Below are positions 9,994 through 22,760 of a stretch of DNA of 25,236 nucleotides, piece by piece. The notes under the pieces were generated by a model, which was not told where the DNA came from, ran no database searches, and saw only the letters and a list, made by a program, of their open reading frames with translations. The first letter of the stretch is position 1; the number at the start of each line of letters is the position of its first letter. The translations under genes were made by a program, and so were the position numbers. The stretch comes from Gemmatimonadota bacterium (GTDB lineage: Bacteria > Latescibacterota > UBA2968 > UBA8231). The stretch lies in NCBI GenBank assembly GCA_002712305.1, contig PATE01000072.1:20856-46091 (forward strand), read 5' to 3'.

Positions 9994-10947
9994 TCAGGAT
10001 GAATTGTCTAGGGCAACTTCAATGAGAGCGCGGAAGTCGGTGACGGCGATGGGTTTGCTCATGAATCTACCGAAGGTGGCCTCATCAACCTCGTCGGGGC
10101 CGACGAAACCAGAGACACCGACAATCGACAGCGCCGGATAAAGCCTGAGCAGATTCTGCGCCAACTCCATGCCATCCATGACCGGCATGCGGATGTCGGT
10201 CACCACGACCTGAACCATCTCCTGCTCGAGAGCCGTCAGGGCCTGCTGGCCATCGGCCGCTTCGCGCACGGCACAATAGGAGAGGGTGCGACGCACGAGA
10301 TCGCGAAAGTCCGGCTCGTCATCGACGACCAGCACTCGCGGAGCTTGGGCCAGAATCTGTTCGTCCATCTGATGCGTTGCCTGGTCACGTTCACCGCCGG
10401 AGGCCACGACCAGATCCAGCGCCAGCTCCGTGCGCTGTTCATGCAGCTTTAGTCGAGACTCCATTCCTCCAGCCGTCGAGCGATAGGCACTCACATCCTG
10501 CACAAACTCGCGCAAGCGGACATTGTCATCAGCCACACGCCGAGCGAGGATCTCGATAAAGTTTCGCATCACGCGCGAACTCAGGGCGGCATCATCCTGG
10601 ATTGCCGTGTCAAAACGATCTCGCTTCAAAACCAGAACCCGGCAGGCGCGCACCGCGGTCACCGTCGCCGAACGAGGTTGTCCGGTGATCACCCCCATCT
10701 CGCCCACCGTCGTGACCGGCGTTAGTGTGGCGACGAGCATTCCCCCTTCATTCGTGACTGACAGTTCACCCGCCAGCAGGATATACATCTCATCACTCGG
10801 TGTCCCGCCGGTGCAAAGCTCTTCGCCTTCTTCGAGTGAACGCGGCTCACACAGGGAGACGAGCAACTTCACACTGTTGGGTGGAAGAGCGTCGAAGATC
10901 GGGATCTTCTTCAGGCTATTGATGAGTAGCTTGGACTTGTCGGCCAC
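9994..10947 (-). CDS. Cyclic-nucleotide-binding domain / response-regulator receiver hybrid
   Basis: 317-residue two-domain protein. Residues 15-140 form a cNMP-binding barrel with the phosphate-cassette motif GEMGVITGQPRSATVTA (82-98, R92 and S93). A helical linker spans 130-195. Residues 203-315 are a CheY-like receiver with acidic pocket D209/D210, phospho-acceptor D251 in TDIRMP, S279 in the Thr/Ser position and K298 in SKPI. There is no DNA-binding or output domain, so it probably acts by protein contact, integrating a nucleotide signal with phosphorylation. The start is a GTG (10947), 11 bases after the upstream gene. It is the last gene of the long minus-strand run that begins with another cNMP-domain protein. 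Confidence 0.9.
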   Translation of the reverse strand: MADKSKLLINSLKKIPIFDALPPNSVKLLVSLCEPRSLEEGEELCTGGTPSDEMYILLAGELSVTNEGGMLVATLTPVTTVGEMGVITGQPRSATVTAVRACRVLVLKRDRFDTAIQDDAALSSRVMRNFIEILARRVADDNVRLREFVQDVSAYRSTAGGMESRLKLHEQRTELALDLVVASGGERDQATHQMDEQILAQAPRVLVVDDEPDFRDLVRRTLSYCAVREAADGQQALTALEQEMVQVVVTDIRMPVMDGMELAQNLLRLYPALSIVGVSGFVGPDEVDEATFGRFMSKPIAVTDFRALIEVALDNSS

Positions 10948-11374: not shown

Positions 11375-13687
11375 TCAGACCGAAACCAGCGGTGGATGGA
11401 CCTGCACATCCCAACCGACGACGTCGACACCGCCCCGTCCATTGTGGACCCGCAGAGTCACTGTGTGGTTTCCCAACGCACCCTTGGCGGGCGGGGACAA
11501 CGACAGGCAGCCGGTCACCGCATCGAGGCTGATCCAGTTGGGGCCCTCGTCCAGAAGGAACTCGACCTGATCGCCATCGCGGAAGGCCTGGAAATACCTA
11601 AGCGGGCCTTCGCTCTGCGCACGCAGATCACCTCGTGAACGCAGGCAACTCACCTGCACGGGCGTGGTTTCACCAGCCGCGATCTGTGGCGGCAGGGTGG
11701 TGGTGATGAAGGGCCGAGGCGCTTCGATCATGCTTGTGGGGCCACTGCGTACCCCCGCCTCATCGACCGCCACGATCCGATAGTACGGCCTGGCCAGCGC
11801 CTCATCTGTGGTGGGACCGATGACTTGGAACTGAGGGTTCGGGCCGGCGTCGATCACGGCGAGCAAATTCGACGGTTCGGTCTGACGGTGCGGCTCTGCC
11901 TCATTGCTCACGAGCATCTCATAGGATTCGCGGCGAGCGCTGAACCCCCGCTCGTCACTTCCATGAATCTCATAGGCGACAGGAGGTGTCCCCTGAGCAT
12001 TCGGGTGCCACTGCAACACGCCGATGCGGCGCTCCCCATCCATCGCCAGCGATGCGGCCACCGGCAGCCCCGGGGCCGCGACACGAAAGTGGGCTGGTTC
12101 ACTCCACGGCCCCCACACACCTTCGGGGCTGCGCCCACGGACCTTCCAGTAGTAGTCCGTCTCCGGATTCAGCAGTCCCTCCTCTGGGGCGACCCAGAAA
12201 CACTCCCCCGCGGAAGCGGTCTTCGACACGATCTTGTCAAAAACGGGAGACAGGGCGTGTTCGGCCCCGGTATCAAGACCGAGACGAAAGTGATAGTCCT
12301 GAGCCCCCTCTCCCGGTGCCCAAGTCAGGCGCACACGACTGGCCGCCTGTGGCTGTCCCGCATCTGGCGTCAGGCCGTCGACCTTCGAGGGCACTTTCCA
12401 GTCATCGCGTTCCTGCCAGCGATAGGTCAGTCGCACCTGCCGAGCATCGCTGCCGTCGCTGTAGTGGACCTGGTTTGTGCCGACGCAAAGGGCAGGCAGT
12501 GCCAGGGGAGCCATCTGCAGATCATTCTCGATCGTCAGTGAACGAAGTGTCCAATCGGTGCCCTGCAGTCGCAGACGGAAGCGATAACATGCCACAGAGG
12601 CCGGTGGCAGCAGATCATCCAGGTTGATTTCGCCATCTCCGCTCAGCGTCTGCCATTCATCCTCGCCATCCTTCTGCATGGACCACACGCCGTCGCCCTC
12701 CACCTGCGAAAGCAACTGGCCTCCCACAAGCACATAGGGCGATCGGATCTCATACACGACCTCGCCCTGGCCTTCAGCCACGAGCCCTTCCGTTGTTCCG
12801 CTGACATGCGTACTCGAGAGTGCCCATCGCGTCTGGGCCAACGGCACCGACCAGTGCAGAAGACCGTTGGCGAACCGGGGAGGAGGCGAGCCAAATCCGT
12901 GGTATTTCCCCCTCTCGGACCAACCCCATTCGAGGCGTTCACCGGGCCGAAGGTTGATCTCCATTCTGTGATCGCCAACAGGTTCGCGTGTTCCGGACCG
13001 AGGTCCATCGAAGCAGAACAGGGAGGCTGCCGACTCAGTGGTTTCGCGATTCTCGGCGGCGCCGATTCCGTAGGCATGGGAACGTTTCATCAGGTCATGA
13101 TCGGCACTGATTTGCCCCTCGGAGGCGATGGTCAGATTGTCGCGATCCAGAACCTGCAGATGCTCATCACTGTCGAGCAGATGATAGTCGCCGTCGTAGA
13201 AAACCTCTGATGTGCAGTGACCGTGTGGCAGCCCACGTCTCACCTTGAGCCCTGCTGCCTGCCACAGATTGGACACGGTAAAGGCCTCATCCCAGCACAG
13301 GGTATAGCCGTAGGCATTCAGCATCTTCACTGTGTCCTTGACCTCATCGTCGCCTGTGGTGCTGTGATATCGATAATGTCGCGCAAAATCCCAGATCGCT
13401 CGCGCCTTGGATGCGTCATCCATCCCGGCGGCCAGTATGGAGTCGAGGATGGTTTCCATGTTGCGCATCACAGGCCTGCCCTCGACTCGGACCCAGGCAT
13501 CGAGGACCTCCTCGTCACCCACATTCTCGAGGCTGAGACCGACCATATTCTCCCAGCTCTGGCCATAGTAGCCGTAGCCCACCGGATCTCGTGTCATCTC
13601 ACCATCGATCCTCCCGCCCACATCGATCCGCATCGTCTGCTTGGATGTGGTGATCTGTTCGACAAACTGACGTGCCTGGATCGTCAT
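11375..13687 (-). CDS. Transglutaminase-like protein with fibronectin type III-like repeats
   Basis: 770-residue multidomain protein. The N-terminal third holds a transglutaminase-like cysteine peptidase fold. Its apparent Cys-His-Asp triad is C131 in YTLCWDEAF, H157 in GLPHGHCTSEVFYDG and D172 in YHLLDSDEHL. A beta-rich middle region follows, then two fibronectin III-like domains, recognisable by DYYWKVRGRSPEGVWGPWSEP (Trp/Tyr core pattern) and ARPYYRIVAVDEAG. A C-terminal cadherin/Ig-like domain reads ISLDAVTGCLSLSPPA and TLRVHNG. No signal peptide or membrane anchor is seen, which is odd for such an architecture. The ATG at 13687 overlaps the upstream hydrolase stop (ATGA). It could be a protease, amidase or cross-linking enzyme acting on a surface polymer; the substrate is unknown. 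Confidence 0.85.
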   Translation of the reverse strand: MTIQARQFVEQITTSKQTMRIDVGGRIDGEMTRDPVGYGYYGQSWENMVGLSLENVGDEEVLDAWVRVEGRPVMRNMETILDSILAAGMDDASKARAIWDFARHYRYHSTTGDDEVKDTVKMLNAYGYTLCWDEAFTVSNLWQAAGLKVRRGLPHGHCTSEVFYDGDYHLLDSDEHLQVLDRDNLTIASEGQISADHDLMKRSHAYGIGAAENRETTESAASLFCFDGPRSGTREPVGDHRMEINLRPGERLEWGWSERGKYHGFGSPPPRFANGLLHWSVPLAQTRWALSSTHVSGTTEGLVAEGQGEVVYEIRSPYVLVGGQLLSQVEGDGVWSMQKDGEDEWQTLSGDGEINLDDLLPPASVACYRFRLRLQGTDWTLRSLTIENDLQMAPLALPALCVGTNQVHYSDGSDARQVRLTYRWQERDDWKVPSKVDGLTPDAGQPQAASRVRLTWAPGEGAQDYHFRLGLDTGAEHALSPVFDKIVSKTASAGECFWVAPEEGLLNPETDYYWKVRGRSPEGVWGPWSEPAHFRVAAPGLPVAASLAMDGERRIGVLQWHPNAQGTPPVAYEIHGSDERGFSARRESYEMLVSNEAEPHRQTEPSNLLAVIDAGPNPQFQVIGPTTDEALARPYYRIVAVDEAGVRSGPTSMIEAPRPFITTTLPPQIAAGETTPVQVSCLRSRGDLRAQSEGPLRYFQAFRDGDQVEFLLDEGPNWISLDAVTGCLSLSPPAKGALGNHTVTLRVHNGRGGVDVVGWDVQVHPPLVSV

Positions 13688-14652
13688 CGAGTCTCTCCTC
13701 CTACTTCGCAGAGCCATTCACCAATGGTCTGTGCCAACTGGCGGGGCTTCTCAAGGTGCGGTGCGTGGCCACAGTCATCGATCAAATGCAGTCTGGACTG
13801 GGGAAGATCCTCAGCAAGACGTTGTGCATACAGCGGTGAGATCACGCGGTCCTGCCTTCCCCAGCACACGAGGGTTGGCCAGGCAACACTCGAATAGGCA
13901 TCGACGATCCAGTCCATGTTGGAGGGCACCATGTTGCGTGCGGTTTCCTGGGCCGCTCGGATGCGCTGCGAAGATGTCAGCAGACTCAGGTATCGTTCCC
14001 ACAATCCCGGCGGAATGGCGTCTGGGTCAGCGAAGGCTCTTCGAATCGATCGCTTGATGACCCACTGCGCGATCCCGAGGGAGAGAAGCACTCGACGAGA
14101 CCACGGGGCGGTGATCAGGGACCCCAGACGGCCCTGGAACACTCTGAGCAGGCTTGGGATCTGTTGAGGATACGCGGCGGCATCTTCAAGGATCAGCCCC
14201 ACCATCGCCGGTCGATCGGGCCAGGGGGTGCACAGCATACGCAGCGCCAGACCCCCTCCGAGTGAACTACCCATCAACACGAGATTCCGCAGCGACAACT
14301 CGGCGATCAGCTGCTGCAACTGTTTGACATGCAGATCTGCATCGTAGCGATGTGTCGCAGGAGTTGTCGCCAGGTGCGGCGTGCTGCTGAGCCCTGCCCC
14401 GAGCAAATCGACGGTGACCATGTATCGATCGCCGTGACGAAGATGGGGCAGAAGATACTGCCACGTACGCTGATCGTCGAACAGGCCATGAATCAGCAGC
14501 AGATGAACCGGTGCCTCCACCTGGCCATAACAGGTGTAGGCCAATTGCACGGGCTTACCATCCTCGGTGCCAACCGTGACTGCACCCCTGCACACATTCG
14601 GGTCAGACAAGGATGCAGACCCCTCCACCGTTGAGGAAGCGGGCGTAAGCAT
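13684..14652 (-). CDS. Alpha/beta-hydrolase fold protein
   Basis: 322-residue alpha/beta hydrolase. The oxyanion-region HG is in LLIHGLFDD (54-60), the nucleophile elbow is GSSLGG (S130), the acid is D268 in WGRQDRVISP, and the base is H296 in CGHAPHLEKP. This complete triad supports esterase, lipase or related hydrolase activity; the substrate cannot be assigned. About 30 N-terminal residues precede the fold without a clear signal peptide. The ATG at 14652 lies 24 bases after the membrane-protein gene and has no strong ribosome-binding site. Its stop overlaps the transglutaminase-like start by four bases, so the two hydrolytic enzymes are likely made together. Confidence 0.88.
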   Translation of the reverse strand: MLTPASSTVEGSASLSDPNVCRGAVTVGTEDGKPVQLAYTCYGQVEAPVHLLLIHGLFDDQRTWQYLLPHLRHGDRYMVTVDLLGAGLSSTPHLATTPATHRYDADLHVKQLQQLIAELSLRNLVLMGSSLGGGLALRMLCTPWPDRPAMVGLILEDAAAYPQQIPSLLRVFQGRLGSLITAPWSRRVLLSLGIAQWVIKRSIRRAFADPDAIPPGLWERYLSLLTSSQRIRAAQETARNMVPSNMDWIVDAYSSVAWPTLVCWGRQDRVISPLYAQRLAEDLPQSRLHLIDDCGHAPHLEKPRQLAQTIGEWLCEVGGETR

Positions 14653-14676: not shown

Positions 14677-15402
14677 CTACATCACGTGTAACCAGTCGTC
14701 GAGCAGGAAGCGGATCCGGCCGATCAGCAAGGACAGGCGTGCCATGATCGTGTAGCCGAAGGACGCGCCGAAGGAGATCATCAGAAACCAGATCCCCACC
14801 TTCGAGATGCCACCCACCACGCCGCGATGCTCGACGGAGAAAAAGAAGTAGACGAGGACGCTCACCACGCCGATCAGGATCAGCAGGAGATTGAGGCCAT
14901 CTACATCCATCGTAATGGGGCGGATGGTCGCTTCGATCTGCGACAGGAGGAAGGCGGAGATGTATCGCGGAATCGTAAAGCCTGCTCCTACGCCGACGAC
15001 GAAGGCGAAACTGATGCGACTCAACCAGCCGATCTTCACCGACATCCGGGTCAGGATCAGCAGGCCGAGCACGGACGGCACCAACAGCAGGAGGCGCTGT
15101 GTCATCGTGGCAGGGTCATCGCCGATGCCGAAGATGCGGACCACCACCTCCCCATAGAGGCTCTGATACCAATAGATACCGAAGATGTACGCCGCGGCGA
15201 CACCGACGAAGATATGCTCGGCGAGTTTGAACAGTGGATTGTCGCGATAGAGGAAGCTATAGAGACTGACGGTCAAACCTGCCGCCGTGATGACGCCAAG
15301 GCTGGTCCAACTCATGTCGAGGTAGCCGCCAACGAGCAGAATCGCATTCAGGATGACGAAGATGCCGATGAAGCCGAGAAACAACATAGAATCGCGTGTC
15401 AT
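14677..15402 (-). CDS. Polytopic membrane protein of the MutL/DUF6754 cluster
   Basis: 241-residue protein with about seven membrane helices spread from residue 7 to 220, for example LFLGFIGIFVILNAILLVGG at 7-26 and LNLLLILIGVVSVLVYFFFS around 170-190. Short polar loops contain LYRDNPLFKLAEHIFVG, a motif that looks specific to this cluster. I know no enzyme family to match it, and see no transporter or redox signature. The ATG at 15402 has GAGG eight bases upstream. It follows the preceding gene after 82 bases, one of the two largest gaps inside the run. It is likely a membrane subunit of the complex suggested by the neighbouring MutL and DUF6754 genes. Confidence 0.8.
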   Translation of the reverse strand: MTRDSMLFLGFIGIFVILNAILLVGGYLDMSWTSLGVITAAGLTVSLYSFLYRDNPLFKLAEHIFVGVAAAYIFGIYWYQSLYGEVVVRIFGIGDDPATMTQRLLLLVPSVLGLLILTRMSVKIGWLSRISFAFVVGVGAGFTIPRYISAFLLSQIEATIRPITMDVDGLNLLLILIGVVSVLVYFFFSVEHRGVVGGISKVGIWFLMISFGASFGYTIMARLSLLIGRIRFLLDDWLHVM

Positions 15403-15484
15403 TGTGTCTGCCTCACAGTCGTCAGCTGCGCCATCATTAGGGCCTGTTCAGCCGCCTCGCATGATCTGGTTGTCAAATGGGCCC

Positions 15485-16309
15485 TCATGCTGCCCCCCTG
15501 CGTCGCGAGGCGAAATAGGCGGCATTGCCGATGAGGATAAAGGCGACGATGATGAGGTGCGCGATCGATTGCGCCCGCATACCGGCCGTCGCTGAGCCGG
15601 GGATTTCCACGAGTTTCTCGTATTCTGCGGCACCGGCGAGTCCGCCGATCATGCCACGCAGCTGATTCGACTGCAGAAATGGATACAGGTCAGGTGCCAT
15701 GACGGCCGTACATCCACCTGAGAAGGCGAACTTGTATTTCTCCACGCCAAAGGGAATCCACCAGAATTCGATCGAATCTCCTGCGGCGAAATCGAAGACC
15801 AGATTGAAGTCGTTCAGATTCCGAATGTTCGCCGTCACCGGAATGTCGCCCACCAGCGTGCCCTGTGTATCACGCGGCCAGGCGTCGTGGAAGTCCTGCC
15901 CCATGTTGATGATGGGCGCCCACAGTCCCGGTTTGTAGCCCAGGAAGGCGTAGTCGGTTCCGTATTCCTTGCCGTATTCTCCCGCCACCTGGTCCAGTGC
16001 AGCCTGCGCAAGCCCAGGCGCTTCCGGCCACAGGCAGATGGCCACGACCTTGATGTCACGGCTGAAGGCATGGCGCAGAATCGCCAACGACATGGGCTGC
16101 ATCTCCGGCACCGTACTGGCACCATAGGAGAAGGCGAGCAATACGACAGGATCATCTTCGGACGCGACGCGTTCGAATTCGTCATACACGCGCTGCACCG
16201 GTTCGGTGGGCTTGATGGGGAAGGAGAAATCGATGAGAAGGGGGACGGCGACGCCGACAAAAACGAAGGCGAAGATGATCCGTCGGTCGATGTTCAGTAG
16301 ACGTTCCAT
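15485..16309 (-). CDS. Bitopic membrane protein with large soluble domain, MutL/DUF6754 cluster
   Basis: 274-residue protein. One N-terminal membrane helix (about residues 10-28, IIFAFVFVGVAVPLLIDF) and one near the C-terminus (about 248-266) flank a soluble alpha/beta domain of roughly 215 residues. That domain contains DDPVVLLAFSYGASTVPEMQP, followed by DIKVVAICLWPEAPGLAQ and LGYKPGLWAPIINMGQDF. Charges predict that the domain is outside the cytosol. The ATG at 16309 shares one base with the upstream stop (TGATG) and has a strong GGAGGAG ribosome-binding site; a GTG three bases earlier is possible. I do not recognise the fold with certainty; it looks like a Rossmann-type domain but lacks a clear nucleotide loop. 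Confidence 0.8.
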   Translation of the reverse strand: MERLLNIDRRIIFAFVFVGVAVPLLIDFSFPIKPTEPVQRVYDEFERVASEDDPVVLLAFSYGASTVPEMQPMSLAILRHAFSRDIKVVAICLWPEAPGLAQAALDQVAGEYGKEYGTDYAFLGYKPGLWAPIINMGQDFHDAWPRDTQGTLVGDIPVTANIRNLNDFNLVFDFAAGDSIEFWWIPFGVEKYKFAFSGGCTAVMAPDLYPFLQSNQLRGMIGGLAGAAEYEKLVEIPGSATAGMRAQSIAHLIIVAFILIGNAAYFASRRRGAA

Positions 16310-16962
16310 CACTCATCTCCTCCGCCCAGATAGGACCGTTCAATACCGAAGATGATGCGCAGCGACGTCGCAATCGCGCCGAGACTGACGCCGAGGATGA
16401 TACCACGCTTGGCGGCAAGATTCGGTACTTCCATCAGCCACGCAACGGCCTCTGGAAAGAAATCGGAGATCGCATGGCCGATCGGCACGCGCCCGACCAT
16501 CAGTATGATCGCCGCCACCAGAAGAATCGCCGCATCGGACGACCGGGCGCGGAAGGTTCGATATGCCGCCGAGGCGATGTAGAAGGCGAGCATGGAGAAC
16601 ATGGTCGAGGAGCAGGCGACATGGATGTAGGTGAACATCCACTGATAACCACCGGCACTGGCCTGCGGCGCAAAGGGCCCGGCGCCGTCGTTGTAGACGA
16701 CGAAGAGGAACATGACCAGGAAGCTCGCGATGGCGACGCCCGAGTAGGCCCAGCCTCCCTGGCGTCTCTGGATTCGTGTCCAGTGCAGATTCAGGATGCT
16801 GTAGAGCCCCAGGAAGTAGGCGAAGGCGTAAAGGATGCGCAGCCACAGAGACAACTCACGTTCGATCTCTTGAGCCACTCCATGGGGGATGTAGTAGATG
16901 AGGACCGCCACGGCTCCGAAAGCGAAGGCCAGCAGCGTCGGTAACGTTCGAGTCAGGAACAT
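16309..16962 (-). CDS. Six-TM membrane protein of the MutL/DUF6754 cluster
   Basis: 217-residue integral membrane protein with about six helices: around residues 7-25, 40-58, 76-94, 112-132, 145-162 and 187-206. A conserved-looking polar loop, NLHWTRIQRRQGGWAYS, lies between helices 2 and 3. Later, the hydrophilic stretch VPIGHAISDFFPEAVAWLMEVPN could line a channel or bind a partner. The ATG at 16962 has AGGAG nine bases upstream, overlapping the stop of the DUF6754 gene (gap 12 bases). Its own TGA overlaps the next start. Function is unknown; co-translation with its neighbours argues for a shared membrane complex. Confidence 0.8.
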   Translation of the reverse strand: MFLTRTLPTLLAFAFGAVAVLIYYIPHGVAQEIERELSLWLRILYAFAYFLGLYSILNLHWTRIQRRQGGWAYSGVAIASFLVMFLFVVYNDGAGPFAPQASAGGYQWMFTYIHVACSSTMFSMLAFYIASAAYRTFRARSSDAAILLVAAIILMVGRVPIGHAISDFFPEAVAWLMEVPNLAAKRGIILGVSLGAIATSLRIIFGIERSYLGGGDE

Positions 16963-16974
16963 GATCAGACGCTC

Positions 16975-18186
16975 CTAGTGGGCGGCCAGCGCGTGAGTGA
17001 TGAAGGGCCAGCCGGCCGTCGCCAGCAGGCTGCCGAATAGAATTGCGGCAATGAGGAAGGCTTTGCCGATGTCCTGTCCCTTGAGCGATCCGAGCATGCG
17101 TGGCTCGCGGGACAGATAGGCACTGGCGGCGTAGAGTTCCTCTCCCATGAGGGTGTAGTCGCAAGTGGTGACAAAGAAGGGCAACTGCGTGAAGGCGTCC
17201 GTTCCAGCAATCTGGATCGCACCGGTCATCGATCCGGTTTCGGCCAACAGCAGCGACTCGGCATAGAAATAACCCATCATGATGTGGGCGGCAGGTCGCT
17301 CGCGGACCATCATCCCTTCGACGGCCGCTGCATAGCTGAACTGATCTGTCCCCGCGACGAAGATGTTGTCCTCGTTGTAGGCGTCGGGTCGTCCCACCTC
17401 GACATAGGCTTCCTTGACGGTTTCCTGACTGACCGACATCACCACCGGGTCGTAGCTGGTCACCTTGAGCAGGGTGTCATACTGGGCCGTCTTGCGAGCC
17501 ACCTGGCCGAGGATGTTGACGGCGGCGATAGTGGAGATCTTGTCCATCTCTCGAAGGCCGTGTACGAACATGACAGCCTTGCCCATCTCCGTCGCTCGCC
17601 CTAAGGCCTCGTCAATCGCTTCCAGCCCGGCAATACGACGGATGAACATCTCCTTGCGTCGAGCCAGCGAGATCGAAGCCAGGATGATGAGGGACAGGGC
17701 TGTGCCAATGACGAAGTTGTTCAGTTTCGCCGTGTTGATCAGGTTCGCCTCAGGAACGGCAGAGGTGATGGCGCCGCGCAGTTCCATCCCGTCGGTTCGT
17801 ACCGCGACTCTGACGTAGTAGATCTGGTCGTTTTCAAGGGACTGTCTGCCATCGTCGAGGGCATAGTCGGAGACGTTGACATAATGCGTGGCGTCCTGTT
17901 CCTCACCGCGCCCGAAGTTGCCGGGGTCGTCAGCCAACACGGCTGCAAGCGGAGCTTCGACTTCGGCGGCCAGGTGAAAGGGCCCCGACTCGTCCGCGGC
18001 GACATACACCAGATACGTCGTGCCCCCAACTGCCTCACCGCGTGGCCAGGTGACGGTGATGCTCGCCCCAGCGTCATTCGGTGTGTCGGAGGCGGCGGAC
18101 TTCGGCGGGGTCTGGGCTAGCAATTGGGCAGGCAGCAGTATCGCCATGCACAACGCCGTGAGGCCTCGATTCGCTCTGCGACGCAT
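16975..18186 (-). CDS. DUF6754-type membrane protein with FN3-like N-terminal domain
   Basis: 403-residue protein. It has a signal-peptide-like N-terminus (RRRANRGLTALCMAILLPA, possible cleavage after LLAQ near residue 25), then a fibronectin-III-like domain at about 42-145 with TYLVYVAADESGPF and QIYYVRVAVRT. A membrane helix at 156-174 follows, then a roughly 200-residue cytosolic-side domain and a C-terminal helix at 376-397. The soluble part after helix 1 (FVHGLREMDKISTIAAVNIL, DPVVMSVSQETVKEAY, FYAESLLLAETGSMTGAIQIAGT) is what I recall as DUF6754, a family with no known role. The ATG at 18186 has AGAGGAAGG upstream. It is the natural bridge between extracytoplasmic FN3-like domain and the cytosolic MutL-like ATPase. 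Confidence 0.8.
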   Translation of the reverse strand: MRRRANRGLTALCMAILLPAQLLAQTPPKSAASDTPNDAGASITVTWPRGEAVGGTTYLVYVAADESGPFHLAAEVEAPLAAVLADDPGNFGRGEEQDATHYVNVSDYALDDGRQSLENDQIYYVRVAVRTDGMELRGAITSAVPEANLINTAKLNNFVIGTALSLIILASISLARRKEMFIRRIAGLEAIDEALGRATEMGKAVMFVHGLREMDKISTIAAVNILGQVARKTAQYDTLLKVTSYDPVVMSVSQETVKEAYVEVGRPDAYNEDNIFVAGTDQFSYAAAVEGMMVRERPAAHIMMGYFYAESLLLAETGSMTGAIQIAGTDAFTQLPFFVTTCDYTLMGEELYAASAYLSREPRMLGSLKGQDIGKAFLIAAILFGSLLATAGWPFITHALAAH

Positions 18187-18274
18187 GGACCGTCCTTCCT
18201 CTTTGCTGGGTTGCCACCATCGACTACCCTGGGTACTTCACGTGTCGCCGATTCTGCAGCGTCAGCGGACTTTG

Positions 18275-19396
18275 CTACTCTTCGATCAACTCCACATTGG
18301 CTCGGGGCACGATGGCTCGCTCGCCATCCTCGAATTCGACTTCCAGAACTCGAACCGTGGCGCCCGACTCCACTTGGCGCAACTCAGAGATCAACTCGAC
18401 GACGGTTCCGATGCGGCCGAAGTATGGCGCCCGAATCACGCGCAGGGGGTCGCCTTCTCCCATGCCCCCCACGTGAGAAGCGTCTGGCACCTGCGTCGCA
18501 TCTTCGTTAGAGGGTATGATGATCTCCGGTCGTAGAACGCCGGCTCGGATCTGCGTGGCGCCTGATAGTGACGCATCACGCCCATCACAGGCGGACAGCG
18601 TATTGAAGGTTTTGCGCGCCATGGCAATATCGCCAAATCCTTCGGTGACGATCACGGTCAGGTCGATCTCTTCGCTGCCTGTGATGGCCACACCCAGGTC
18701 GTAGCCGAGCAACTGCCGCAGGTCGCGATCGGCTATGCCACCGGCGATGATTCCCACGGCTCCCTTGTCCCGGGCGGCTTCGACGGCGGCGTGTGAGACA
18801 CGTCCACCGCCCACCAGGATCTTGCCCTCACTGTCAGCGGGCAGGATATCGGGTGTCACGTCCTGTTGCGGCGTGTCGGTGATCATCTGGAGCTTGCCCC
18901 AGCGTTCGCCACCGATGCCGAAGATTCCCTGCACAAAAGCACCTACGTTCTCGACGATGACACCCTCTTCGGGGATCACCTCCACAACGATGCCGTCGAT
19001 ATAGGCTGGCACTTCCACAGGCGCCGGCGGTTTGCGCAACATGACCTGGCCCGTGACGGAGGAGATGCTCTCGATGGTGCCGTCGATCTCAGAGGCGATT
19101 TCGGTCTTGAACCACTTGATCAGGGGCCGCGTCTCGGCGAGGATCTCGCCGACGCTGACCACATCGCCTTCAGACTTGAGCATGTATCGGGGAATCTCTT
19201 CAGCCGAAATGCCGAGTCGGTTGACGATATTGAGGGTCACCACATCGCCCGGCAGATCGGTTCGGGCCACGACCTGGTCACGACGCACATGATCACCTTC
19301 TGCGACCAGGACCTCTCCCTTCAGAGGCAGACGCCGTGTCCTGCGCAATGCGGTGTTGGCCGTGACCCGCAGACCGGGTGTATAGGCATGGGCCAT
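18275..19396 (-). CDS. Barrel-sandwich / KOW-like domain protein partnered with MutL
   Basis: 373-residue soluble protein. The first half looks like lipoyl/biotinyl-type barrel-sandwich sequence: LPLKGEVLVAEGDHVRRDQVV (about 23-43), EGDVVSVGEILAE, EIDGTIESISSVTGQVML and YIDGIVVEVIPEEGV. It lacks a modifiable MKM lysine, as in RnfC/NqrA-like or membrane-fusion-like adaptors. A central domain (about 190-260) has KGAVGIIAGGIADRDLRQLLG. The C-terminal 55 residues carry a KOW-like motif, RVIRAPYFGRIGTVVEL, and a second strand set ending NVELIEE. The start is one base after the MutL stop, so the two proteins are almost certainly co-produced. An adaptor between MutL and the membrane subunits is a reasonable guess, not shown by sequence. 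Confidence 0.8.
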   Translation of the reverse strand: MAHAYTPGLRVTANTALRRTRRLPLKGEVLVAEGDHVRRDQVVARTDLPGDVVTLNIVNRLGISAEEIPRYMLKSEGDVVSVGEILAETRPLIKWFKTEIASEIDGTIESISSVTGQVMLRKPPAPVEVPAYIDGIVVEVIPEEGVIVENVGAFVQGIFGIGGERWGKLQMITDTPQQDVTPDILPADSEGKILVGGGRVSHAAVEAARDKGAVGIIAGGIADRDLRQLLGYDLGVAITGSEEIDLTVIVTEGFGDIAMARKTFNTLSACDGRDASLSGATQIRAGVLRPEIIIPSNEDATQVPDASHVGGMGEGDPLRVIRAPYFGRIGTVVELISELRQVESGATVRVLEVEFEDGERAIVPRANVELIEE

Positions 19397-19397
19397 C

Positions 19398-21263
19398 TTA
19401 CGCCTGCTCCCCGTAGATCTGCAGTGCCTGATACCAACCTTCCAACTGCTGCACCCGTGTCACTGGATCGGGCGACATCTGCAGGGGTCGTCCGCGTCCA
19501 TCAAGGATCACGCCGACGGTTCCACCGTGAATGGTCGTTTCGTAGGCCTGGCCAGCACCGCCACCCACATCGACGTCACGCACGGGGGAGATGCTCAGCT
19601 TGGCTTCGGCGCCCTCAGCCAATGGAATCAGACGCAGGTCCGAGACACGCAGTTCACCCGATTCGACACCACTGCCGAATGCTCCGGAGGTCATTTCATA
19701 GGTGGCCAATACGTCATTCGGCTTCATCTCGCGTTTGCCCACGTTGACCGGTGCCACACAGGTTCCCAGATGGACGATACAGTCGCGTTCAAAGACCTCC
19801 GTTGCGGCCTTCTCGTTGACCGTCGACAGAACCCCCAGGTGGGGCATCATGAAGATGCTGTCTACGGCGAGTCGCGTGATCCCCTCGGGTTGGTAGGCAT
19901 CGACCATCATCGCCGCTGTCTGCGAGCGCCGCGGCGCGTGAGACAGAACACCACCGGAACCCACGAGCAGATCGAGGGCCATCATGTCGATGAGAGACGC
20001 ACCGGCTTCGGTCTGGTCAAACACGTCAGACAGCGTTCGTTCAGCCTGAACGCCCTTGAGCCCGACAGCCAGTTGGCGATGCTGGACATAGGCCAGTCGC
20101 AGGGCTTCTCGTGCGACGCCGTGCTCGATCTGTAATTCCTGCAGGGTCTGGGGGATCGTGGTGGGGCGGATCATCTTGTTCTTGATCCGGTCTCGTAGAT
20201 CAGCCTCGTCCAACTCGAAGGGGATCCAGCGCATGACGTCGTCGAGTCCGGCCGCTGACAGGACATTCGAAATGCTGTACGACATACCGAGGTTGGCGCT
20301 CACGGTGCGATTGAACACCGATTCGCCATCGACGGTAAACACGGAGAACACATCGGTCGTGGCCCCACCGATATCGACGCCAAGAACATTGATGCCCCGC
20401 TGCCTGGCGATGGTCTGCATGATCTGGCCCACCGCTGCAGGGGTCGGCAGGATTGGGGCCCCCGTCCATCCCATGAGCTTGCGATAGCCCGGAGCCTGCG
20501 CCATGACGTGCTCGAGAAACAGATCGTGAATGACGTGACGGGCGGGCCCGAGATTCTCCTGCTCGAGAACAGGTCTCAGATTCTCCGTCAGGGTGAGCGC
20601 CGTCTTCTCGCCGAGGGTTTCCTCGATCTTCTCTGCCGCATCCTTGTTGCCAGCATAGATCACGGGCAGTTGGAAACCACTGCCAAATCGGGGGCGCGGG
20701 TCGGCGGCGGAGATGAACTCGGCCAGTTCAACGACGTGAGAGAGCGTGCCGCCGTCGGTGCCGCCGGATAGCAGGACCATGTCAGGTCGAAGCTGACGGA
20801 TTCGTTCGATCTTCTGATGGGGAAGGCGTCCGTCATTCGAGGCCAGCACGTCCATGACGATGGCACCCGCGCCCAGGGCGCACCGCTGTGCACTTTCGCC
20901 CGTCATCGATTGCACCACGCCGGCGACCATCATCTGCAGTCCGCCACCGGCTGAGCTGGTGGAGATATACACATCTACCCCCTCCTCGCCTTTGGCGGGA
21001 GTGATGATGCGCTCGCCATCCAGAATGCGGCGACCCGACAACTCCTCTACCTCTTGAATGGCATTCAGGACGCCGCGGGTTACGTCTTCGAAAGGCGCTT
21101 CGACCGTGGTCGGCGCTTCTCCTCGGAACGTCTGGCGGTAGACATCGCCCTTGCGCTCGATGAGAATCGCCTTGGTCGTCGTCGATCCACAGTCCGTGGC
21201 GATGACGACATCGATCTTGTCGGGTGTTTCGGTAGCTGTTGCGGCGGGTACAGATTCAGTCAT
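19398..21263 (-). CDS. MutL-like (glutamate mutase L / GlmL-type) ASKHA ATPase, long form
   Basis: 621-residue member of the MutL family, related to the GlmL accessory protein of glutamate mutase and to the actin/Hsp70/sugar-kinase fold. Nucleotide-binding motifs are intact: phosphate 1 DCGSTTTK at 24-31, phosphate 2 DIGGATTD at 297-304 and the glycine-rich LVGSGGVLSH at 433-442. In between, LLSGGTDGG occurs at 164-172. Clostridial GlmL proteins are about 460 residues. This one has a C-terminal extension with HGGTVGVILDGRGRPL, which I recall from long MutL proteins of other phyla. GlmL probably reactivates a B12-dependent mutase, but no mutase or B12-domain gene is present here. It starts inside the end of the upstream small gene (8-base overlap). 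Confidence 0.92.
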   Translation of the reverse strand: MTESVPAATATETPDKIDVVIATDCGSTTTKAILIERKGDVYRQTFRGEAPTTVEAPFEDVTRGVLNAIQEVEELSGRRILDGERIITPAKGEEGVDVYISTSSAGGGLQMMVAGVVQSMTGESAQRCALGAGAIVMDVLASNDGRLPHQKIERIRQLRPDMVLLSGGTDGGTLSHVVELAEFISAADPRPRFGSGFQLPVIYAGNKDAAEKIEETLGEKTALTLTENLRPVLEQENLGPARHVIHDLFLEHVMAQAPGYRKLMGWTGAPILPTPAAVGQIMQTIARQRGINVLGVDIGGATTDVFSVFTVDGESVFNRTVSANLGMSYSISNVLSAAGLDDVMRWIPFELDEADLRDRIKNKMIRPTTIPQTLQELQIEHGVAREALRLAYVQHRQLAVGLKGVQAERTLSDVFDQTEAGASLIDMMALDLLVGSGGVLSHAPRRSQTAAMMVDAYQPEGITRLAVDSIFMMPHLGVLSTVNEKAATEVFERDCIVHLGTCVAPVNVGKREMKPNDVLATYEMTSGAFGSGVESGELRVSDLRLIPLAEGAEAKLSISPVRDVDVGGGAGQAYETTIHGGTVGVILDGRGRPLQMSPDPVTRVQQLEGWYQALQIYGEQA

Positions 21264-21585
21264 CCCGTGCGTTTTCTAACTCGAGGATCGTATCACAGAT
21301 GAGATCGACGGATCGCCGCTTCTCGAGGAGGCGAATGAAGCGGTCCACGTCCGACGAATTGAAAATAAGGGTCAACAGGGGAGAGAGAAAAGCCAGGGCC
21401 TGACTGCCGACGAAATTCAGGGGGCGACTCGACTCGAGCGTCATCAGCGCGACGGACGACATTCGACGCCGCACGACGAATTCTGCCAACCGTTCGATCA
21501 ACTCTTGCTCGTCCGCTTCCAGTGTCTCATCGGCTGCATCCTCGATGGCAAATGCGTGGGCCCATCTGTCTCGCCACGTGCTCAT
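21256..21585 (-). CDS. 109-residue protein upstream of MutL, function unknown
   Basis: Short acidic protein starting at ATG 21585, which overlaps the upstream stop as ATGA; the longer frame to 21759 merely lies over the upstream gene. The N-terminal part is charged and helical (ADETLEADEQELIERLAEFVVRRR). A hydrophobic stretch, FVGSQALAFLSPLLTLIF (about 64-81), may be a buried helix or a membrane-associated hairpin. The last 25 residues are again charged (RFIRLLEKRRSVDLICDTILELE). I recognise no family. Because it is wedged between the PH-like protein and the MutL ATPase with overlaps on both sides, it is probably a small regulatory or assembly subunit of that system. Confidence 0.75.
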   Translation of the reverse strand: MSTWRDRWAHAFAIEDAADETLEADEQELIERLAEFVVRRRMSSVALMTLESSRPLNFVGSQALAFLSPLLTLIFNSSDVDRFIRLLEKRRSVDLICDTILELENARDD

Positions 21586-22052
21586 GAGGCCGTCCCATCG
21601 TGCGCCCGCCGATGATCGTCGATGGCGCCGGCGACCTGTGCCTGGTTGTCGGCGTAGCGAACAAAGAGCCCCCGAAACCCGTCCAATCGCGAGGGCACCC
21701 TGAAAGGGCTCATAAACAGACCGTCTGCATGTACGTCGATGCGGTTGATCTGGCGCCATGTCAGTCGACGGGCGACGCCCAGATTTTTTGTCGTCACGCC
21801 CTGGTCATCGACGACGTAGTCGGTGGGAAGAAGATAACGAGCCATGGAGAGCGCCAGAACCACCAGCGAGATCAGACCGAACAGAATGTGCTCAAGGCTC
21901 CAGGCAGCCATGGCCGACACGGCGAAGATCAGCGCAAGCAGGCAGGTCGTGCGAGCGGCGGACTCCTGTCGCAGGGGATGGACGCGCCAGGATAGGGGGG
22001 ATGTAGTTTTTGGGTCAGTGTCGAGACGGGCAGGGGCGGGACTCGATGTCAT
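21582..22052 (-). CDS. Two-TM protein with bacterial PH-like domain
   Basis: 156-residue protein. A polar N-terminus of about 30 residues leads into two adjacent membrane helices (about 35-52 and 54-70). A small beta-rich domain follows, beginning YVVDDQGVTTKNLGVARRLTWRQI; this matches the pattern of bacterial PH (YdbS/YdbT-like) domains, in which a strand-turn-strand with 'I...G' is followed by a W-x-x-I-x-x-I motif. Such domains often mediate membrane or protein contacts. The ATG at 22052 overlaps the Crp-like regulator stop (ATGA). It is the first membrane protein of the run and its start is well supported by the overlap; the exact role is unknown. Confidence 0.78.
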   Translation of the reverse strand: MTSSPAPARLDTDPKTTSPLSWRVHPLRQESAARTTCLLALIFAVSAMAAWSLEHILFGLISLVVLALSMARYLLPTDYVVDDQGVTTKNLGVARRLTWRQINRIDVHADGLFMSPFRVPSRLDGFRGLFVRYADNQAQVAGAIDDHRRAHDGTAS

Positions 22053-22726
22053 CCCTCTTTGCCCGCCTCGTCCGGCGTCAGCACGATGATGTCTCGACCC
22101 CGGGTGGTGATGTAGCCCTGTTGCTCTAGCTGTTTCAGTTCGCGCGTGACCGTCTCTCGAGTGGTTCCCGCCATATTGGCCAGTTGCTGGTGCGTTGGGC
22201 GGCCTGTGATCATGACGCCACCTGGGGCAGGTTCGCCCTGGTCGGTGGCCAGGCGAAGGATGGTCTTGGCCACTCGATGGTGTACATCGAGCAGAGCAAG
22301 TCCCTCCACCTGATCGTCGGTACGTCGCAGCCGCTGGGCCAATTCCTCCAGCAGTGACACGGCGATCTGCGGGATCTTCGACAGCAAGGCGCGGAAGTCC
22401 GAACGCTGGAGCATGACCAGTTGGGTTTCTGTCATGGCCGTCACATTCGCCGAGCGGGGCTGATCGTCCAGAAGAGACAGTTCGCCAAACACCTCACCTT
22501 CACCCAACAGGGAGAGGATGAATTCTTTTCCGTCTTCGTGGATGAGGCTGACCTTCACCTGTCCTGAGCGGATGATGAAGAGAGAATCGCCGGGCTCTTC
22601 GGCGAGAATGATGAATTGCCCCTTGTCGAACGTACGCGTGTACGTCAGCTCAGCTAAGGCGTCGAGCTCGGACTCGCCAAGGCAGTCGAACAGGGGCACC
22701 TGGCGCAGGAATTGGCTGAGGGACAT
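22049..22726 (-). CDS. Crp/Fnr-family transcriptional regulator
   Basis: 225-residue regulator with an N-terminal cyclic-nucleotide-binding barrel (about 10-120), a dimerisation helix (120-145) and a C-terminal winged helix. The cassette FGELSLLDDQPRSANVTA (80-97) keeps G81, E82, R91 and S92, so cNMP binding is possible. The recognition segment is RPTHQQLANMAGTTRETVTRELKQLEQQGYI. There is no N-terminal cysteine cluster, so it is not an Fe-S Fnr. I prefer ATG 22726 to the in-frame TTG at 22732. It is the first gene of the thirteen-gene run and likely controls that run. The last gene of the run is also a cNMP-domain protein, suggesting that one nucleotide signal is sensed twice. Confidence 0.92.
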   Translation of the reverse strand: MSLSQFLRQVPLFDCLGESELDALAELTYTRTFDKGQFIILAEEPGDSLFIIRSGQVKVSLIHEDGKEFILSLLGEGEVFGELSLLDDQPRSANVTAMTETQLVMLQRSDFRALLSKIPQIAVSLLEELAQRLRRTDDQVEGLALLDVHHRVAKTILRLATDQGEPAPGGVMITGRPTHQQLANMAGTTRETVTRELKQLEQQGYITTRGRDIIVLTPDEAGKEG

Positions 22727-22760
22727 GGGCAACGCTCACAATGAGGGATCAAAGCACGCG

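Follow-up and report, generated by a model that had tools for sequence, protein, structure and literature searches.

Conserved gene order around a long MutL ATPase

The window analysed here, a stretch of 25,236 nucleotides from a Gemmatimonadota bacterium (GTDB phylum Latescibacterota; contig PATE01000072.1, positions 20,856 to 46,091), reads on its minus strand as nine co-directional open reading frames (14677–22732), among them genes for a long ATPase of the MutL family, a protein of the DUF6754 family and several proteins with transmembrane (TM) segments (Table 1). The eight junctions between them measure −4, −4, −8, +1, +88, +12, −4 and +82 bases; six are therefore of 12 bases or fewer and the remaining two of 82–88 bases, as an earlier interpretation made from the letters alone (the sequence-only reading) had described. 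The cluster exceeds chance, because the identical gene order was found again in roughly 100 loci. For six of the nine window proteins, all but the Crp/cNMP-binding, MutL and DUF6754 proteins, no Pfam family scored above cut-off.

Table 1. Genes of the minus-strand cluster, in order of transcription (window positions)
Product	Position	Strand	Remarks
Crp/Fnr-type regulator	22049–22732	−	cNMP-binding and Crp helix-turn-helix domains (Pfam)
Two-TM PH-like protein, accessory	21582–22052	−	bPH_6 below cut-off
G109, 109-aa helical protein, no known family	21256–21585	−	Conserved pattern FLESxxPLxFxGSQ..P...LExR
Long MutL ASKHA ATPase, 621 aa	19398–21263	−	Pfam MutL, E 6e-128
KOW protein, 373 aa, barrel-sandwich (lipoyl/RnfC_N-like) domains and C-terminal KOW	18275–19396	−	
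DUF6754 protein	16975–18186	−	Pfam DUF6754, E 8e-114
6-TM protein, no known family	16309–16962	−	
Two-TM protein, extracytoplasmic Rossmann-like domain, no known family	15485–16312	−	
7/8-TM protein, no known family	14677–15402	−	Invariant E62, Q155, R222

The conserved unit is smaller than these nine genes and occurs much more widely than in this genome. In the window's phylum, represented by a set whose named members are mostly Candidatus Latescibacterota, DUF6754 is present in 54 of 64 genomes, and the order PH-like–G109–MutL–KOW–DUF6754–6-TM–two-TM–7-TM was found again in 20 regions, in some cases with extra genes separating MutL from the rest. DUF6754 and long MutL occur together in 51 of these genomes and are jointly missing from 7, including one family (G006–G009), with 6 discordant cases (p 2e-5), of which at least two are contig ends (L143, L144).

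Beyond the phylum, the cluster is conserved in many uncultured phyla and in nitrogen-cycling ones. A DUF6754 alignment scan of the named genome collection yielded no fewer than 575 relatives; represented among the top 80 are Nitrospira, Planctomycetota (anammox and others), Methylomirabilis and Elusimicrobia, together with WOR-3/Stahlbacteria, Poribacteria, Zixibacteria, Edwardsbacteria and Fermentibacteria. Across a dozen phyla, nearly all of the approximately 100 loci have the quartet in the order DUF6754–6-TM–two-TM–7-TM, and some have it doubled or tripled in tandem (L120, L122, L126, L127, L129, L130). The G109–MutL–KOW module immediately precedes the quartet in Latescibacterota, Nitrospirota and Planctomycetota; other groups have it at a different place in the genome.

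Presence counts point the same way. The co-occurrence check suggested in the sequence-only reading gave MutL in 29 of 30 sampled diverse DUF6754 genomes and KOW in 28 of 30, even when the genes are unlinked (KOW presence and neighbourhoods were counted throughout with a clean profile built on our alignment A3). Four of 60 Elusimicrobia genomes have MutL, KOW and DUF6754, the same four for each of them, and the other 56 lack all three; the chance of an identical set of four is approximately 2e-6 for one pair. Among 60 genomes of the WOR-3 group, MutL is present in 55 and DUF6754 in 54 (co-occurrence p 0.005), usually with one long MutL to between one and five DUF6754 copies. Judged by these genome comparisons, the cytosolic module and the membrane quartet are co-inherited.

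The first genes of the cluster behave differently. Among the 20 regions from the phylum, the Crp gene is present only in the window and its genus-mate. Because it is restricted to this genus, the regulator stands outside the conserved system, even though it shares the transcription unit here, and we rejected it as a core component; the sequence-only reading had placed a nucleotide-responsive regulator on top of the complex. The PH-like protein is encoded by a real gene, but its label is weak (bPH_6 E 0.013, below the Pfam cut-off); common in the phylum without being universal, it appears in 22 of approximately 100 loci and is accessory. Where G109, a helical protein of about 110 residues, is present, its gene in most loci immediately precedes that of MutL. 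A Pfam scan of all members of the G109, 6-TM, 7-TM and two-TM families gave scattered matches only.

Several neighbouring genes were also observed. In the window, a minus-strand gene at 9994–10947 encodes a 317-residue protein whose N-terminal part is matched by a Crp profile and whose C-terminal part reads as a receiver domain; it is kept at the same place in the genus-mate (L032, 15667–16623). An alpha/beta hydrolase and a 780-residue protein (11375–14652), downstream of the 7-TM gene, are kept with the cluster in this genus only (L032). In 25 Nitrospirota loci (L077–L121), the quartet is followed, in most cases after no more than about 300 bases, by a same-strand gene for a Memo-like protein (AmmeMemoRadiSam B, PF01875, E 1e-43), which may be an added part of the system in that phylum.

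The cytosolic module and the membrane quartet

The window MutL matches the MutL domain (PF13941) at 427.9 bits against a cut-off of 27 and extends past it at the C terminus. Both of its phosphate motifs, TDCGSTTTK and VDIGGATTD, are intact, and in 12 diverse members of the phylum, about 66–86% identical to the window protein, both nucleotide motifs are invariant. ATP-dependent activators of the BcrAD/BadFG type (PF01869) share its fold superfamily, and MutL may likewise work as an ATP switch on a partner, but it scores 24 bits against the family's cut-off of 31.5, and no dehydratase or reductase partner was seen. Searched by sequence among solved structures, MutL, the KOW protein and the two-TM protein gave no relative, and DUF6754 matched only FN3-bearing chains.

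The 373-residue KOW protein shows weak RnfC_N, biotin/lipoyl and KOW matches in the window (RnfC_N 16.6 bits, cut-off 25.6) and firmer ones in its relatives (RnfC_N 1.6e-6, Biotin_lipoyl 1.5e-5, NQRA_N 0.0013, KOW 0.004). The sequence-only description of a barrel-sandwich/KOW protein was thus a good one, since both kinds of domain are matched in relatives. Although the barrel-sandwich domains are of the kind found at the N termini of RnfC and NqrA, the cluster contains no Rnf or Nqr genes, its membrane partners match no Rnf or Nqr family and the RnfC_N match in the window is below cut-off. Unlike lipoyl and biotinyl carriers, the KOW protein shows no invariant modifiable lysine at its hairpins in alignment A3, where the candidate position is K, S, Q or R; we therefore rejected lipoylation of the protein itself. 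The window protein has a single cysteine.

Natural gene fusions are classical evidence of joint function, and five genomes (G077, G081, G092, G133, G148) encode single frames of about 740–950 residues that join a MutL domain to KOW-like barrel-sandwich repeats. The window KOW protein aligns with one of these by BLASTP over 285 columns (E 1e-15). The fusions sit in a divergent paralogous branch of a quick tree and so back the pairing of MutL with KOW in general, not this exact pair. Because the two parts are naturally fused in some paralogues, MutL and KOW probably act as one unit, in line with the partnership proposed in the sequence-only reading. One fusion-bearing genome (G081, Fermentibacteria; L124, L200–L202) has three fusion paralogues besides separate MutL and KOW genes, with one fusion near a quartet and a 1134-residue PAS-like protein.

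In the quartet, the DUF6754 protein has a signal-like N terminus and was modelled (predicted local distance difference test (pLDDT) score 91.7) as an FN3 domain and an alpha/beta Rossmann-like domain separated by a TM helix, with a further helix at the N terminus and a TM helix at the C terminus. The anticipated FN3-like domain was confirmed by a fold match (Z 10.7, root-mean-square deviation (r.m.s.d.) 2.8, 96 aligned residues), and dehydrogenases matched the Rossmann-like domain at Z of about 9, an RpiR SIS domain at 8.1. The protein family also has a C342-D-Y-T motif that is nearly invariant and a number of glutamates that are fully so; from their conservation, these residues could serve in catalysis or ligand binding. 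Foldseek and VIA-align otherwise returned generic Rossmann-like matches, the absence of better ones being no proof.

The 6-TM and 7-TM proteins have 6 and 7–8 TM-like segments, as first described. No ABC (ATP-binding cassette) permease family recurs in either family; isolated weak matches occur in single members. The remaining protein of the quartet had been called bitopic with an extracytoplasmic domain: it carries two TM segments instead (residues 12–30 and 250–268), and the outside placement of its domain agrees with the positive-inside rule. Its model (pLDDT 93.6) places a Rossmann-like domain between the TM helices, with best structural matches to the carbon monoxide dehydrogenase epsilon subunit CdhB (Z 10.3, r.m.s.d. 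3.0, 145 aligned residues) and then TrkA/RCK domains (about 8.6). Z values this low may mean a shared common fold only; no sequence similarity to these proteins was found, and the two-TM protein is membrane-anchored and predicted to lie outside the cytosol. One locus (L066, 4075–6009) has a two-TM gene of 1935 bases, about 370 codons above the usual length, suggesting an added domain.

By positive-inside counts, the Rossmann-like domain of DUF6754 is predicted to be cytosolic, and the FN3 and second Rossmann-like domains to lie outside. This topology describes an inner-membrane complex with domains on both faces; the term 'envelope-spanning' used in the sequence-only reading is unsupported, because no outer-membrane or periplasm-spanning part is conserved.

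A candidate ATPase-switched membrane machine and its alternatives

On balance, we lean towards an undescribed inner-membrane machine of two modules, G109–long MutL–KOW and the quartet, in which an ASKHA ATPase switch acts on a membrane core. In such a machine, MutL, an actin/Hsp70-fold ATPase with intact nucleotide motifs, would form the switch together with the KOW protein and would dock on the cytosolic Rossmann-like domain of DUF6754. ATP binding and hydrolysis by MutL would change the conformation of the multi-pass core, and the Rossmann and FN3 domains on the extracytoplasmic face would sense or exploit this change for regulated transport or for signal transfer across the inner membrane. 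Where a genome has one MutL and several quartets, a single cytosolic module would serve all of them. Energy-coupling factor (ECF)-type transporters have a shared energising module serving several membrane units; the likeness, that a genome combines a single ATPase module with more than one membrane unit, is an analogy, as the ATPase here is of the ASKHA and not the ABC kind and there is no homology. More tentatively, this may be the first case of an ASKHA ATPase module energising or gating an inner-membrane transporter of several subunits, with one module shared by several interchangeable quartets and a coupling to lipoyl-dependent glycine and pyruvate metabolism in Nitrospira, relatives of anammox bacteria and numerous uncultured phyla.

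Several points weigh against such a machine. Co-inheritance, read from genomes, does not prove contact between the modules, and the related genomes in the co-occurrence counts are non-independent. A few metagenome-assembled genomes have one module without the other, which incompleteness may explain. The fold matches of the modelled Rossmann-like domains are generic. Finally, the genes adjoining the MutL module in some other phyla are housekeeping genes unrelated to it (trpE, tpiA–secG, ispH and an rseP-like gene, by reading), and any lipoate link may therefore be operon history.

That link comes from the neighbourhoods. Of 104 MutL loci, 36 have a same-strand lipoate or glycine-cleavage gene no more than 5 kb away; of 38 loci with the quartet alone, none has one (p 2e-6, with no correction for kinship, in a comparison chosen after seeing the data). 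Such genes stand beside the MutL module in five groups. About nine Latescibacterota loci have LplA upstream of the module; five Nitrospirota loci have LipA beside it, four of them together with an E2 gene; three loci (L122, L126, L129) have gcvT–gcvH–gcvPA–gcvPB upstream and LplA downstream; gcvPB occurs in 20 of approximately 36 WOR-3-group loci; and an Edwardsbacteria locus (L210) has gcvPB and LplA. Pfam confirms these identities for representatives. The window genome has the Crp gene at that position instead. Since the module repeatedly sits in lipoate and glycine-cleavage operons, its small molecule or target might be tied to lipoyl-dependent metabolism (glycine cleavage, pyruvate dehydrogenase), a suggestion we make with little confidence and treat as a lead.

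The same neighbours invite another explanation, which we consider unlikely: that MutL–G109–KOW uses ATP to activate lipoyl enzymes or to help in their assembly (P-protein/H-protein, pyruvate dehydrogenase, lipoate ligation), with the quartet supplying or sensing a related metabolite. The adjoining LplA, LipA (with E2), gcvTHPAPB and gcvPB genes across groups, the lipoyl-like barrel-sandwich domains of the KOW protein and the fact that ASKHA relatives act as enzyme activators all favour it. However, an activase alone leaves four membrane proteins unexplained; many loci have no lipoate or glycine-cleavage neighbours, the KOW hairpins lack the invariant lysine, and quartets without MutL are never near lipoate genes.

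Somewhat more doubtful is the quartet as a sensor or signalling complex, with MutL as output switch and no transport. Such a sensor would suit the predicted placement of an FN3 and a Rossmann domain outside and of another Rossmann domain inside, the variable FN3 and copy number, and the Crp-type regulator adjoining in one genus, but no kinase, cyclase or receiver is conserved with the quartet.

Less probable again is a role beside an oligopeptide-type ABC transporter, with the system as an accessory that would control or energise the uptake of solutes. OppA/OppB/OppC-type genes (Pfam) are interleaved with or beside MutL and KOW in approximately 15 loci, mostly in Latescibacterota and also in Elusimicrobia, but no Opp genes stand beside the system in Nitrospirota, Planctomycetota or the WOR-3 group. 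Loci in which such genes (SBP_bac_5, BPD_transp_1) occur in varying orders, as if kept together, are L039, L040, L043, L044, L140, L142, L144, L146 and L147 in Latescibacterota and L106 and L251 in Elusimicrobia.

Separation from glutamate mutase

That the window MutL simply serves a B12-dependent amino-acid mutase as a GlmL-type accessory, with unrelated neighbours, is highly improbable and already largely refuted. It shares with GlmL the full-length ASKHA ATPase domain, both phosphate motifs and, besides the PF13941 match in Table 1, a best NCBIfam match to the GlmL model (NF040745), but it reaches only 231.5 bits against that model's equivalog cut-off of 475 and is longer at the C terminus. 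A quick tree, with long branches, splits it from mutase-linked and GlmL-like proteins as a separate deep branch. Its genome lacks the mutase, and the long MutL is linked to the KOW protein and the membrane quartet instead. The mutase epsilon subunit was not found in G000 and 62 other genomes of the phylum, nor over cut-off in any of the 60 WOR-3-group genomes, though 55 of those have long MutL.

The single exception in the phylum, 1 of 64 genomes (G058), has its mutase epsilon gene directly adjoining a separate 542-residue MutL of another kind, a true GlmL; its long MutL lies elsewhere, beside KOW. Regular adjacency of MutL and mutase genes in relatives, which the sequence-only reading had named as telling against a separate system, was looked for and seen once, beside the other MutL, and we rejected the mutase link. 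Together with synteny in about 100 loci and co-occurrence, this strongly supports a separate membrane system containing the long MutL. The same genome (L036, L139, L140) also has a divergent quartet unlinked from its long MutL–KOW pair and offers a natural control with both MutL kinds. A 153-residue frame beside a second MutL in G021 resembled a B12-binding protein; it had no Pfam match and was not used.

The annotation 'methylaspartate mutase accessory protein' is probably misleading for this MutL clade. No mention of DUF6754, PF20539 or PF13941 was found in the open-access literature, and targeted searches likewise returned nothing, with subscription literature outside the scope. The system appears never to have been described: its ATPase superfamily is known, but as a whole it matches no known kind. 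Of its seven core proteins, six are without an assigned role, and the annotation of the remaining one implies a function for which most of these genomes offer no basis. Because the system is near-universal in some phyla, such as the WOR-3 group (MutL 55/60, DUF6754 54/60), and is also carried by bacteria of ecological importance such as Nitrospira, many lineages have a core process that is still to be accounted for, and the lipoate and glycine-cleavage neighbourhood provides the first testable lead on its function.

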